Positions 22,513 to 29,219 of a stretch of 64,000 bases of DNA are shown piece after piece. Source of the DNA: Rheinheimera sp. (lineage in GTDB: Bacteria > Pseudomonadota > Gammaproteobacteria > Enterobacterales > Alteromonadaceae); assembly GCA_003543135.1 (NCBI GenBank), contig DPJG01000023.1, forward strand, positions 62,001 through 126,000. Direction: 5' to 3'. Under the pieces are notes generated by a model, which had not been told where the DNA came from, made no database searches, and saw nothing but the letters and a program-made list of their open reading frames with translations. The position numbers and the translations under genes were made by a program. How positions within the stretch are numbered: the first letter of the stretch is position 1; the number at the start of each line of letters is the position of its first letter.

Positions 22513-25957
<3,445 letters not shown>

Positions 25958-26086
25958 TTAAATTAAATTGCTTATCTGGAGTGAGTTGGAGTAATGACGG
26001 CTTAAGCTACAACTTTGCCGCTGCATAATTGGTTGCCAATAACTTTGTGCAAAAAGCCAAGGCAACGGTGAGGTGGATGCACATTA

Positions 26087-26175
26087 CCCTTGTTCCCTTC
26101 GCAGGTTCTAGCCTGATCAGGTTCAACGGATCCCGCATAACGCGGTCTCAGCCCAAATGGGCACTCCGACAAGTG
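26087..26175 (-). ncRNA. TPP riboswitch (THI element)
   Basis: On the minus strand the aptamer core is unmistakable: GGAGTGCC, the conserved GGCTGAGA-like loop, GAACCTGATCAGG, and CCTGCGAAGGGAA near the 3' end. The P1 helix closes with CTTGT pairing with ACAAG. It lies between the thiC promoter and thiC, about 150 bases before the start codon. Confidence 0.97.
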
Positions 26176-26181
26176 TCGTTG

Positions 26182-26218: not shown

Positions 26219-27349
26219 TTACTTCTTGTTGTGCTGGTCGGCGTTCTTATCAAGGACACTGCTGCCAAAAAAGGCGCTGAGTATTTGTCTGTAAGCTTTC
26301 CGGCCAAGATGTTTTAACAACAACCAGAACGGCATCTTCAGGTAATGGCCGCGCAGTAATAACAAAAAATCTGCCAGAGAATCGCCGCTACTGGCAAAAG
26401 CCGGATGTTGCGGCATCAATTTGTGCATAAAAATAAAATCGAGCAGACGCATGCCCAAACTGCCTGGCTTATAAGGCTGCAGTGTCTCTATCACATGTTC
26501 CGGCACTGGCAAAAACAGAATTTTCTGGTTATAACGCAGTGCCAGTAACAACTCAGTGGCAAACCCCGTCTGGATTGCAAGCGCGGTTAACTCTTGCCAG
26601 AAGTCAGGGTTTTGATATTGCTCAATAATCAAATACAAGTCGGTCAGATCGCGAAACCCATGTTTAATCTCTTCACTGAGCATTAAGTGAATAGCGCTGT
26701 GTAACAACATGGCTGCCGGGCTGAATACGGTATAACCGGCACTGTTTTGTTGGGTATGACTAAAAAACAGCTGAATATCCGGCGCTCTGCCTGTCATCAG
26801 CGGCAATAAGTTATGGTGCACATCCAGCAAAGTGCCGCGACTGCCATGACGAAGTGGCGGAATTTCATGTGACCATTCACGGTAGTATTTCTGGTCATAT
26901 TCATCGAGATCTTCGGCGAAAAAGCCATGCAAACACAGTTCGCGCTCGATCTGGGGCAAACTTTGTTTGTCTACCAACAGGTCGATGTCACTGTAAGTGC
27001 GGCCACGGCCGACATCTGCATTGTCCTGTAATGAATAAGCGGCGCCTTTTAAAAACAGCAGGTGAGTGGTCAAAGGTTGCAACAAAGATTGCAGCAATTT
27101 GGCTTCGTATTGCACCTGATGGTATTGTTTTTGCGCAATCAGCTCAGCATTTTTTAAATGATGTTGCACAAAAGTGGGCAGTGTTGAGCCAAGCCCATAT
27201 CGTTGCAGACGCCAGCCGACACGGGCCAGACATTGTTGGTCACGCAGGATGCGCACAATGTCCGCCCAATCCTCAAGGGGGATTGGGCCAGAGACTTTGC
27301 CCAAAAACAGCTGAATAATCAGATTATGGATGTGCATAAGGCAATACAT
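26219..27349 (-). CDS. Nucleotidyltransferase family protein of the HprK-like cassette
   Basis: A 376-residue protein of the PF14907-like nucleotidyltransferase family. The fold motif is KGAAY (101-105) followed by RGRTYSDIDLLV with metal-binding D121 and D123, then LLDVHHNLLP. It would transfer a nucleotidyl group to a substrate that is unknown. Family members occur in peptide-modification clusters, including the N gene of the paeninodin lasso cluster (from memory). It is the last gene of a four-gene operon. Its start overlaps the kinase gene end, and an alternative ATG at 27337 gives 372 residues. Confidence 0.82.
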   Translation of the reverse strand: MYCLMHIHNLIIQLFLGKVSGPIPLEDWADIVRILRDQQCLARVGWRLQRYGLGSTLPTFVQHHLKNAELIAQKQYHQVQYEAKLLQSLLQPLTTHLLFLKGAAYSLQDNADVGRGRTYSDIDLLVDKQSLPQIERELCLHGFFAEDLDEYDQKYYREWSHEIPPLRHGSRGTLLDVHHNLLPLMTGRAPDIQLFFSHTQQNSAGYTVFSPAAMLLHSAIHLMLSEEIKHGFRDLTDLYLIIEQYQNPDFWQELTALAIQTGFATELLLALRYNQKILFLPVPEHVIETLQPYKPGSLGMRLLDFIFMHKLMPQHPAFASSGDSLADFLLLLRGHYLKMPFWLLLKHLGRKAYRQILSAFFGSSVLDKNADQHNKK

Positions 27350-28199
27350 CCTGCTCTAAAAACTCCGCCAGTTCTGCCACATCAGCGTAAGTGACTTCGT
27401 AGTTCTGACAATTTTCTACCAGCTGCACTATGGTGTGAAAACCTTCGCTTCCGGCAAGACTAAAATTAAAGGCATTTTCAGCCAGCGCCATAAAGGCCTG
27501 GGCTTGGTTTAAGGCTGTGACTTCCAGTGGCTGAGCTTTTTGGTATTTGGGAAAAACAATAGCAACCACTTTTGCAGGCTCAGTATTTTGCTGCCAACTT
27601 TGTGCCGGCGGGGATAAATGCACCACATCACCTTTATGGGTGTTTTTAGCAACTGTCGAAAACCGCGCTTGTGGAAACCAATTTCGGGCAAGATCAATCG
27701 ACTGATTTTTCAGGCAAATAGGGCGCACAAAAGGGATCACCTGATTGGTGCCGGGAATAACTAACGCCATTTCATCCGACAATAAACGCCAGCCGTTAAA
27801 AGCTAGCCAGGCGGTGAGCGTGCTTTTACCTGAGCCTGGAGGCGCCGGAAACAACACTGCTTTGCCATCTTTGGCCAACACAGCTGCATGCACTATCACA
27901 AAACGCATTTCCGAAGTGGCAATACACCAATTCATGCCCCATTCCAGCAACGCAAAACCATTATTGATGTCAATTGGCTTAAAGGGCTCCTGCTGATCGG
28001 CGAGAAAACGCGCTTGCGGCCGTAAATATTTACGCAGTCCGCTGCCTGAACGCAAGGTCAGATAATAATCGGGGATCCCTGGGGTTGTGGAAAACAAATC
28101 ACCATAAATCTGCTGCAAATTCGTGGCAACTTTGTTGATATCGGTGCGGATTTCAAAGCAAAAAGGTGCTAGATGCAGATATCTGACGTCAAATGTCAT
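27324..28199 (-). CDS. HprK-related kinase (HprK-rel-A type)
   Basis: A 291-residue protein with an HPr-kinase-like P-loop: PGSGKSTL with Lys125, followed by LLSDEMALV, the downstream acidic motif expected of HprK-type kinases. The first about 100 residues are not HprK-like. Since the genome context lacks a Gram-positive-type HPr system nearby, I favour a kinase for another protein or peptide, as in the PadeK/ThcoK kinases of lasso clusters, which phosphorylate a C-terminal Ser. It overlaps the PqqD-like gene by 11 bases and the nucleotidyltransferase gene by 26, so the three are translated together. Confidence 0.85.
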   Translation of the reverse strand: MTFDVRYLHLAPFCFEIRTDINKVATNLQQIYGDLFSTTPGIPDYYLTLRSGSGLRKYLRPQARFLADQQEPFKPIDINNGFALLEWGMNWCIATSEMRFVIVHAAVLAKDGKAVLFPAPPGSGKSTLTAWLAFNGWRLLSDEMALVIPGTNQVIPFVRPICLKNQSIDLARNWFPQARFSTVAKNTHKGDVVHLSPPAQSWQQNTEPAKVVAIVFPKYQKAQPLEVTALNQAQAFMALAENAFNFSLAGSEGFHTIVQLVENCQNYEVTYADVAELAEFLEQDVLPYAHP

Positions 28200-28428
28200 C
28201 GGCAGTACTCATGGAATTCAACGCCGTTTCTGACAGAAACAGCTTTAGGCGCTGCATAACCAGTGGATTTTGTCTTAATTCAGAGTTGGCATCAGGCAAT
28301 TGCCGGGCAATAACAGCAAGCGGCAAACTTAAAGCTAAAGTTTCGCCGCTGTATAGATGGAAAAAAACAGTGCCGGATTTATCGGCAAAATGATGAACAA
28401 CGACTGCTGACCCAAACCACTCTGACAT
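28189..28428 (-). CDS. PqqD-like protein of the HprK-like cassette
   Basis: A 79-residue protein resembling PqqD-family proteins associated with HprK-related kinase genes (TIGR04353-like, judged by eye). The core VHHFADKSGTVFFHLYSGETLALSLPLA fits the RRE/PqqD fold, which in RiPP pathways binds the precursor peptide. It has no obvious strong ribosome-binding site and lies 16 bases behind the Tat-protein gene, so it is probably translated by coupling. Proposed role: present a substrate to the kinase or the nucleotidyltransferase. Confidence 0.7.
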   Translation of the reverse strand: MSEWFGSAVVVHHFADKSGTVFFHLYSGETLALSLPLAVIARQLPDANSELRQNPLVMQRLKLFLSETALNSMSTADDI

Positions 28429-28444
28429 TGCAGATAACTAGGGT

Positions 28445-29041
28445 TTAGGTGTGGTAATTGTCAATAATAGAGCTCAGTTCGCTGCCTACACCGTTAGGAT
28501 CAAGCAAAGCTTTGTTGTAAAGATATTTGGCAAAGTCGCTTGCACTAGCAAAAGGCTGACCAAAACCAATAATAGGGTAGTTAATACCAAACTTACCGTG
28601 GTTAATTGCATTCAGATAGATGCCGACCATATGGAAGTTACAGTTACCAGAACCTTTAAATTTAGGATCGCCTACCAGGATGTCACCGAAAGTCAGACTG
28701 GTTTTAAGAGATGGAAACCCGCTTTTGGTAAAGGCACGACCACCGAAAATGTTGTAGAAATTGTATTTATGCTGATGCAATTCGTGGTTTGACCAATAAC
28801 CAGGTGAACGCAATTCAATAGGATCACCACCTGCAAAGTCGGAACCATGGCCCGATGCAACAATAGACTGAGCAACACCGCCGCCACTGGCCCAGACTGA
28901 GCGCGCCGGCAGACTTGCAATCACTAAACCTGCAGTTGCTTTAGTCAAAAACTGGCGACGCGACTTGCCAGATCCTGTGGCATGCGCAGAGACCGGAGAA
29001 ACGGTTGATTCGATAGACTTGTTTTCGGGTTGCTCTTGCAT
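28445..29041 (-). CDS. Tat-exported protein with SPGYW motif, cassette gene 1
   Basis: A 198-residue protein I cannot assign to a named family. The Tat signal is clear: Ser-Arg-Arg-Gln-Phe-Leu at residues 27-32, then a hydrophobic stretch and a cleavage region near VWA/SGG. It carries SPGYWSNHE at 79-87, similar to the SPGYWKNHP motif I recall from several exported bacterial proteins. One Cys is visible (GNCNFHM). The C-terminus is DNYHT. The ATG at 29041 follows AGGAGG; an upstream start at 29077 is unlikely. Tat export implies it leaves the cell folded, so it could be modified in the cytoplasm by the kinase or nucleotidyltransferase encoded downstream. Confidence 0.7.
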   Translation of the reverse strand: MQEQPENKSIESTVSPVSAHATGSGKSRRQFLTKATAGLVIASLPARSVWASGGGVAQSIVASGHGSDFAGGDPIELRSPGYWSNHELHQHKYNFYNIFGGRAFTKSGFPSLKTSLTFGDILVGDPKFKGSGNCNFHMVGIYLNAINHGKFGINYPIIGFGQPFASASDFAKYLYNKALLDPNGVGSELSSIIDNYHT

Positions 29042-29114
29042 AACTTCCTCCTGATACAACAGCACTGAATTAAGCATAATTCATGCCATCATATTATGCT
29101 GTTGTCGCATATGG

Positions 29115-29139: not shown

Positions 29140-29219
29140 GATATTAACTTTGTAAACTGAATTGACAGTTATCGTACGCCTGATCTGCGCCTGAGTCCAG
29201 TTGAACGCTGTTAGATTGC

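Follow-up and report, generated by a model that had tools for sequence, protein, structure and literature searches.

What do a kinase related to HprK and a nucleotidyltransferase act upon when their genes follow that of an exported protein? The question is raised by a compact four-gene operon of Rheinheimera sp. (assembly GCA_003543135.1), found in the window, i.e. the 64,000-nucleotide stretch of contig DPJG01000023.1 (positions 62,001 to 126,000) that was analysed. The operon lies on the minus strand, runs from 29041 to 26219 and encodes, in this order, a protein with a twin-arginine translocation (Tat) signal, a PqqD-like protein, an HprK-related kinase and a nucleotidyltransferase. An earlier note on this DNA had described overlapping minus-strand genes at 26219..29041; coordinates and strand are correct, as are two of the overlaps, 11 bases between the PqqD and kinase genes and 26 bases between those of kinase and nucleotidyltransferase, whereas the Tat and PqqD genes are separated by a gap of 16 bases. 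The enzymes probably phosphorylate, and perhaps further decorate, serines of the Tat protein before its export, presumably under the control of PrsR and sigma-54, the product being in this branch most likely a protein of the matrix or of the cell surface. The proposal rests on what is read in the sequence, namely the operon, a near-constant partner, conserved serines and a promoter site of the PEP-CTERM type; from these we infer that the PqqD-like protein binds the Tat protein, that serines at the start of the mature part of the latter are phosphorylated and then modified a second time, that PrsR and sigma-54 control the operon, and that the product serves in the matrix.

The Tat partner is near-constant. 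In a sample of 197 genomes from the order, the TIGR04352 kinase is over its cut-off in 20 (in 24 at E 0.001, the four sub-cut-off genomes being left out), and all 20 carry the Tat gene, a small PqqD-like open reading frame (ORF), the kinase and the nucleotidyltransferase in this order; since it recurs in 20 of 20, the four-gene grouping is not due to chance. Among the named-genome loci, the best 80 of 178 confirmed ones, a Tat protein is present at 76 once the frames had been read individually, while the automatic rule alone gives 72, reading having removed L076 and added five; the 76 include L121 and L130, where a contig end cuts the signal, and L097, which has KR. Applied to control gene starts, the automatic rule is satisfied by 103 of 718. 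Three of the other named loci lack a Tat gene (L062, L067, L076) and one is undecidable (L093). By reading, the gene upstream of the enzyme trio is HslV-like in L062 and L067 and PrmC-like in L076. In the phylum sample (398 genomes, 61 with the kinase over cut-off), 29 further loci were fetched and 25 of them have a Tat gene. The constant Tat partner, which the earlier note had set as the test of its idea that a protein is modified in the cytoplasm before export, was found at 20 of 20 order, 76 of 80 named and 25 of 29 phylum loci, and the idea is to this extent supported.

The Tat protein of the window, the proposed substrate, is encoded at 28445..29041 (minus strand; ATG at 29041, stop at 28445) and counts 198 amino acids; the profile of 40 relatives recognizes it with E 1.1e-14. 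AGGAGG precedes the ATG at 29041, which is a better start than that of an alternative longer ORF beginning at 29077, because the latter overlaps the sigma-54 site described below. The features of a Tat substrate are present by sequence: an RR motif, a hydrophobic stretch and small residues at the cleavage site (SRRQFLTKATAGLVIASLPARSVWA). The twin-arginine motif of the signal peptide, SRRQF, lies at 28949..28963 (minus strand), and its RR is invariant in 40 aligned relatives; TatC is encoded in the source genome, and the protein looks like one exported by the Tat route in folded form. It bears no PEP-CTERM tail, and the three over-cut-off tails of the genome are on other contigs. No NCBIfam or Pfam family was found for it or for the 40 relatives, apart from weak or single-member matches; alignment A2, made of 40 hand-picked sequences out of 73 named-genome Tat proteins, has no relative among PDB sequences, and a Foldseek search with a fair model of one relative (L063, pLDDT 80.7) gave no useful match, the best having E 4.9.

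This protein diverges fast, even inside the genus of the window, while the RR signal and the serines behind it persist. Indeed, the only invariant columns of alignment A2 are the two arginines, S63 and S67. An S...S pattern behind the signal occurs in 91 of 93 Tat proteins, whereas shuffled sequences give 49.8 on average and 64 at most; a stricter serine form is present in 60 of 93, compared with 6.6 (maximum 13), both patterns having been chosen post hoc on sequences already seen. In the window protein the motif is SIVASGHGS (28841..28867, minus strand), located after the signal peptide and proposed, from sequence patterns and alignment A2, as the modification site. The profile of the 40 relatives matches 21 of the 197 order-sample genomes. 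In 19 of these the match lies at the cassette, which leaves G098 as the one kinase genome of the 20 without a match; in the remaining two, G016 and G173, it is confined to the GYWK domain and what follows, and the G173 protein reads as having a Sec-like signal. With the window protein as query, five of the 197 genomes match, and in the other four the match adjoins the kinase. Thus, among these genomes, profile matches spanning the signal and the serine part occur only beside the kinase, and the serine segment is the likely target because it is missing in the two relatives whose genomes have no kinase. The C..GYWK..LNA domain itself is found also in genomes devoid of the kinase cassette (L184 in G016, L185 in G173); among the 40 cassette relatives scanned, it corresponded to no model of Pfam or NCBIfam.

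The kinase (27324..28199, minus strand) matches TIGR04352, HprK-related kinase A, with E 7.3e-99 and 330 bits (cut-off 200); His104, the P-loop Lys125, Asp142 and Glu143 do not vary among 18 sequences, and this stretch aligns with HprK in the profile matches to the PDB. The nucleotidyltransferase (26219..27349, minus strand) matches PF14907 with E 1.5e-40 and 140 bits (cut-off 31), and its Asp121, Asp123 and Asp176 are invariant in 18 aligned sequences; the alignment yields zero matches against PDB sequences. Both families had been named in the earlier note, together with TIGR04353; the window copy of the PqqD-like protein is not recognized by the latter. The 79-amino-acid PqqD/RRE-like protein (28189..28428, minus strand) is the proposed binder of the N-terminal part of the Tat protein. 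TIGR04353, named 'HPr-rel-A system PqqD family peptide chaperone' in NCBIfam, is matched by 33 of the 42 scanned members of its alignment, and the best PDB matches of the profile are the RREs of lasso-peptide systems, TbiB1 (E 0.0014) and TfuB1 (E 0.002).

A promoter that had gone unnoticed in the earlier note completes its account of the cassette. Upstream of the Tat gene, on the minus strand, a PrsR box, i.e. motif 1 of PEP-CTERM genes (TGTCAATTCAGTTTACA, 29151..29167), is followed after 62 bases by a sigma-54 promoter of the -24/-12 type (TGGCATGAATTATGCT, 29073..29088); it is the sole such pair in the 64 kb window, where 0.017 are expected (60 simulations). Sigma-54 sites with a score of at least 10 are present in 46 of 92 Tat upstream regions, compared with 2.8 in shuffles (maximum 6). 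A de novo motif search on 62 of 93 upstream regions, those having a lower-score sigma-54 site and enough sequence, returned TGTCRRNNNNNTTTACA with a score of 1249, while shuffled sets scored 490 and 494. Of the 62 regions, 56 agree with the motif at 11 or all 12 of the fixed positions, and L032, L088 and L118 have fewer than 10. Haft et al. describe motif 1 as 17 bases ending in TTTACA, then a spacer of 32-92 (PMC1569441). The motif found here fits this written description, and in the window motif 1 is followed by the sigma-54 site within that range. An exact match to motif 1 lies upstream of the Tat gene in 38 of 93 cases, and 100 loci have 33 further ones elsewhere. The source genome encodes one PrsR over cut-off, as well as XrtA and TatC, and its three over-cut-off PEP-CTERM genes are all preceded by the pair at a looser threshold, with spacings of 50, 61 and 72; the lowest total among these three pairs is reached by 5 of 4000 random 450-mers. 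A PEP-CTERM gene of Aquincola is reported as RpoN-dependent (PMC9850573). By its upstream sequence, then, the window operon looks like a member of the set under the same switch as the PEP-CTERM biofilm-matrix genes.

The distribution of XrtA agrees with this within the order: XrtA is over cut-off in 26 of the 197 genomes, which include all 20 kinase genomes and 6 of the 177 others (Fisher 2e-22), and in the phylum sample 61 genomes have the kinase, 35 have XrtA, 25 have both and 36 have the kinase alone (odds ratio 23, P 2e-15), neither statistic being corrected for relatedness among genomes. At least one gene of nine XrtA-system similarity clusters, each identified through one member, lies in the available flank of 38 of the 80 named loci (24 of the 49 with a flank of at least 16 kb), an uncontrolled count.

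A sequence of events can be proposed on these grounds. The PqqD/RRE-like protein would hold the Tat protein by its signal-bearing N-terminal part; next, one or more serines of the S...S motif, where the mature region begins, would be phosphorylated by the HprK-like kinase; the nucleotidyltransferase homolog may then add a group to the phosphate, possibly a sugar or a nucleotide. Such RRE-guided phosphorylation with a second addition is proposed because of the precedents of PsmK/PsmN in pseudomycoidin and of the linear polyphosphorylated peptides (LPP) of Bacillota, both considered below. Since modification would take place in the cytoplasm, the finished, folded protein would leave the cell by the Tat route. 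PrsR and sigma-54 may turn on the operon jointly with the PEP-CTERM proteins, and from this co-expression the product would most likely be a matrix or surface protein in this branch.

Several observations weigh against this picture. Of the 61 kinase genomes of the phylum sample, 36 are without XrtA over cut-off; in the genomes read that lack it, a second kind of Tat protein, with the end ..[ST]CW.S.., predominates, and the PrsR box was found in none of the 18 upstream regions scanned. Therefore the matrix link fails for the enzyme family as a whole. An exclusive link between cassette and XrtA was discarded: all 20 kinase genomes of the order sample agree with it, but only 25 of the 61 in the phylum sample. 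As read from the sequences, enzymes and Tat protein go together in general, and the setting with PEP-CTERM genes is a trait of the branch of the window. The pairing itself is not without exceptions, since enzymes are present and no Tat gene was seen upstream in the three named loci mentioned above, nor was one seen at L158, L159, L160 and L166 of the phylum loci. The window PqqD-like copy, alone, is matched by no NCBIfam or Pfam model, TIGR04353 included, and its predicted structure is weak (pLDDT 70), the top Foldseek match being TbiB1 with its leader peptide at E 0.11. The window Tat protein lacks a cysteine pair that is frequent among the relatives. Searched genome-wide, the exact motif 1 turns up eight times, compared with four for a reversed control, so that alone it is unspecific; one of the eight sites precedes the window operon and two precede PEP-CTERM genes. 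Deletion of lppN had no detectable effect in the LPP system, as stated in PMC13381572. Finally, in a transposon screen of Rubrivivax, the psc1 locus received 25 insertions and none fell in its four cassette-like genes, according to PMC3684757, so that the cassette may be dispensable for aggregation.

Tat proteins of the second kind, mostly with an end like ..YYAIT.SCWSSF, were recorded at L143, L146-L151, L154-L157, L161-L165 and L168-L170 of the phylum sample, in genomes with no XrtA match or only a sub-cut-off one.

Other explanations can be considered for the same genes. The enzymes might form a maturation or quality-control set, in which the PqqD-like protein is a Tat chaperone guarding the signal peptide and a reversible phosphorylation times export instead of decorating the product. 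HprK itself is a kinase/phosphorylase, judging from the names of the PDB matches, NCBIfam labels the PqqD family a 'peptide chaperone', and the signal-peptide end looks well conserved when judged beside the mature domain, not against other Tat signals; however, this leaves the nucleotidyltransferase homolog devoid of a role, and the conserved serines sit behind the signal, within the exported part, so that we regard it as unlikely. A bolder form of the decoration proposal, quite unlikely in our estimate, makes the Tat protein a carrier for the exopolysaccharide or its sugar through a serine phosphate, that is a folded phosphoglycoprotein anchoring or priming the XrtA-type matrix; if true, protein and polysaccharide would here be joined by another route than exosortase sorting. 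The XrtA-system genes flanking 38 of the 80 named loci would also suit enzymes acting on a small molecule, such as an exopolysaccharide sugar phosphate, with the Tat protein as a separate, co-regulated matrix protein; we give this little credit, since the Tat gene accompanies the enzymes even where XrtA is missing and the kinases of this kind studied in PMC9266682 and PMC13381572 act on peptides. Modification of the C-terminus instead of the N-terminal serines, as PadeK does with the C-terminal Ser of the paeninodin precursor, is very improbable, because the pattern like YL..TM[ST] ends 29 of the 93 Tat proteins and is missing in 64, the window protein among them, whereas S...S is found in 91, even if most second-kind proteins of genomes without XrtA end in ..[ST]CW.S... 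A C-terminal Ser or Thr as universal site was ruled out, one pattern fitting just those 29.

Phosphorylation of the N-terminal serines before Tat export thus stays the preferred reading, and it gives the locus a broader interest. A set of RRE, HprK-like kinase and NTP transferase is here paired with a near-constant Tat-exported partner, so that the purpose of these phosphorylations becomes directly testable; in this branch the promoter is common to floc and matrix genes for which genetics exists in environmental bacteria (Aquincola, Rubrivivax); and a context is given to a family of Tat substrates that is widespread and has no name.

Around the operon, a thiamine pyrophosphate (TPP) riboswitch (RF00059, 80 bits) lies directly 3' of the cassette, at 26077-26178 (minus strand), ahead of a putative thiC (24110-25933). 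The neighbours of the operon, read by eye from motifs, are presumably this thiC and an exonuclease. Elsewhere, the genome of L051 (G134:C1, around 4275869) has, besides a standard cassette, a second and divergent one with a 61-amino-acid Tat-like peptide, a 394-amino-acid protein that reads as a PqqD-kinase fusion and a nucleotidyltransferase-like protein.

How far, then, is the cassette already known? It is real and conserved, and just a part of it has been described: the enzymes are named as a family and the substrate family is unnamed. The earlier note had considered it the best candidate for an undescribed system, which stands for the Tat family, still nameless, and not for the enzymes, which go in NCBIfam under the name 'HPr-rel-A system' (TIGR04352 kinase, TIGR04353 PqqD family). 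The window kinase is an over-cut-off member of that system and the PqqD-like gene is in the equivalent place, 33 of the 42 members of its alignment matching TIGR04353; compared by names alone, those families carry no Tat partner, regulon or function. Among the papers listed by searches of the open-licence literature, none was recognized as describing the Tat substrate family, its serine motif and promoter, and no paper was found on TIGR04352, TIGR04353 or PF14907.

With paeninodin (PadeK) and pseudomycoidin (PsmK, PsmN) the cassette shares an HprK-like kinase that acts on a ribosomal product and, for pseudomycoidin, a nucleotidyltransferase homolog; according to PMC9266682, PsmK is the phosphorylating enzyme and PsmN accounts for hexoses attached to the phosphorylated Ser. 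Conversely, no macrolactam cyclase or B2 leader peptidase is encoded by the four genes, as had been remarked before, and the product counts about 150 residues after the signal; a lasso-peptide reading was therefore ruled out, neither cyclase nor leader peptidase being in the operon. With the PEP-CTERM/XrtA exopolysaccharide system it has in common the PrsR box and sigma-54 promoter, and some cassettes lie within the same loci; it differs because its protein carries a Tat signal and no PEP-CTERM tail, and some kinase genomes are without XrtA. The psc1 locus of Rubrivivax gelatinosus probably offers an example: in Table 1 of PMC3684757, RGS1_10376-10379 are two unknowns, an 'Hpr(Ser) kinase/phosphatase' and a conserved unknown, the order expected of the cassette when table descriptions, not sequences, are compared, adjoining PEP-CTERM TPR, response-regulator and histidine-kinase genes; in the accessible part of that paper they are tabulated without interpretation.

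The closest studied relative of the window cassette is the LPP system of Bacillota, which has a discrete RRE, an HprK-like kinase and an NTP transferase (PMC13381572). The trio is the same, although the window PqqD copy is unmatched by models, and the paeninodin parallel drawn in the earlier note is amended accordingly: the same three kinds of enzymes act on Bacillota peptides, and the likely target is the N-terminal serine motif instead of a C-terminal Ser. LPP precursors are 35-200 amino acids long, with a conserved start and a variable end, and their loci lie within polysaccharide genes; LppK attaches several phosphates to Ser3 of the LppA core, and the authors call a biofilm role tempting, and untested. 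A serine close to the mature N-terminus is thus polyphosphorylated in LPP, while the window motif is a putative site only. Export sets the two apart: LPP loci have an archaeal-type signal peptidase and an MsbA-like transporter, neither of which the window operon encodes; at the other loci, the ten model-identified clusters of the 30 most recurrent ones include no SpI-like peptidase or MsbA-like transporter, and the LPP leader motif YxxPxVLxHQxIxFETxxS is absent, by reading, from the window Tat protein. In its place, the cassette has a Tat signal for export, relatives with a domain predicted to fold, Proteobacteria as hosts and the promoter of the PEP-CTERM genes.

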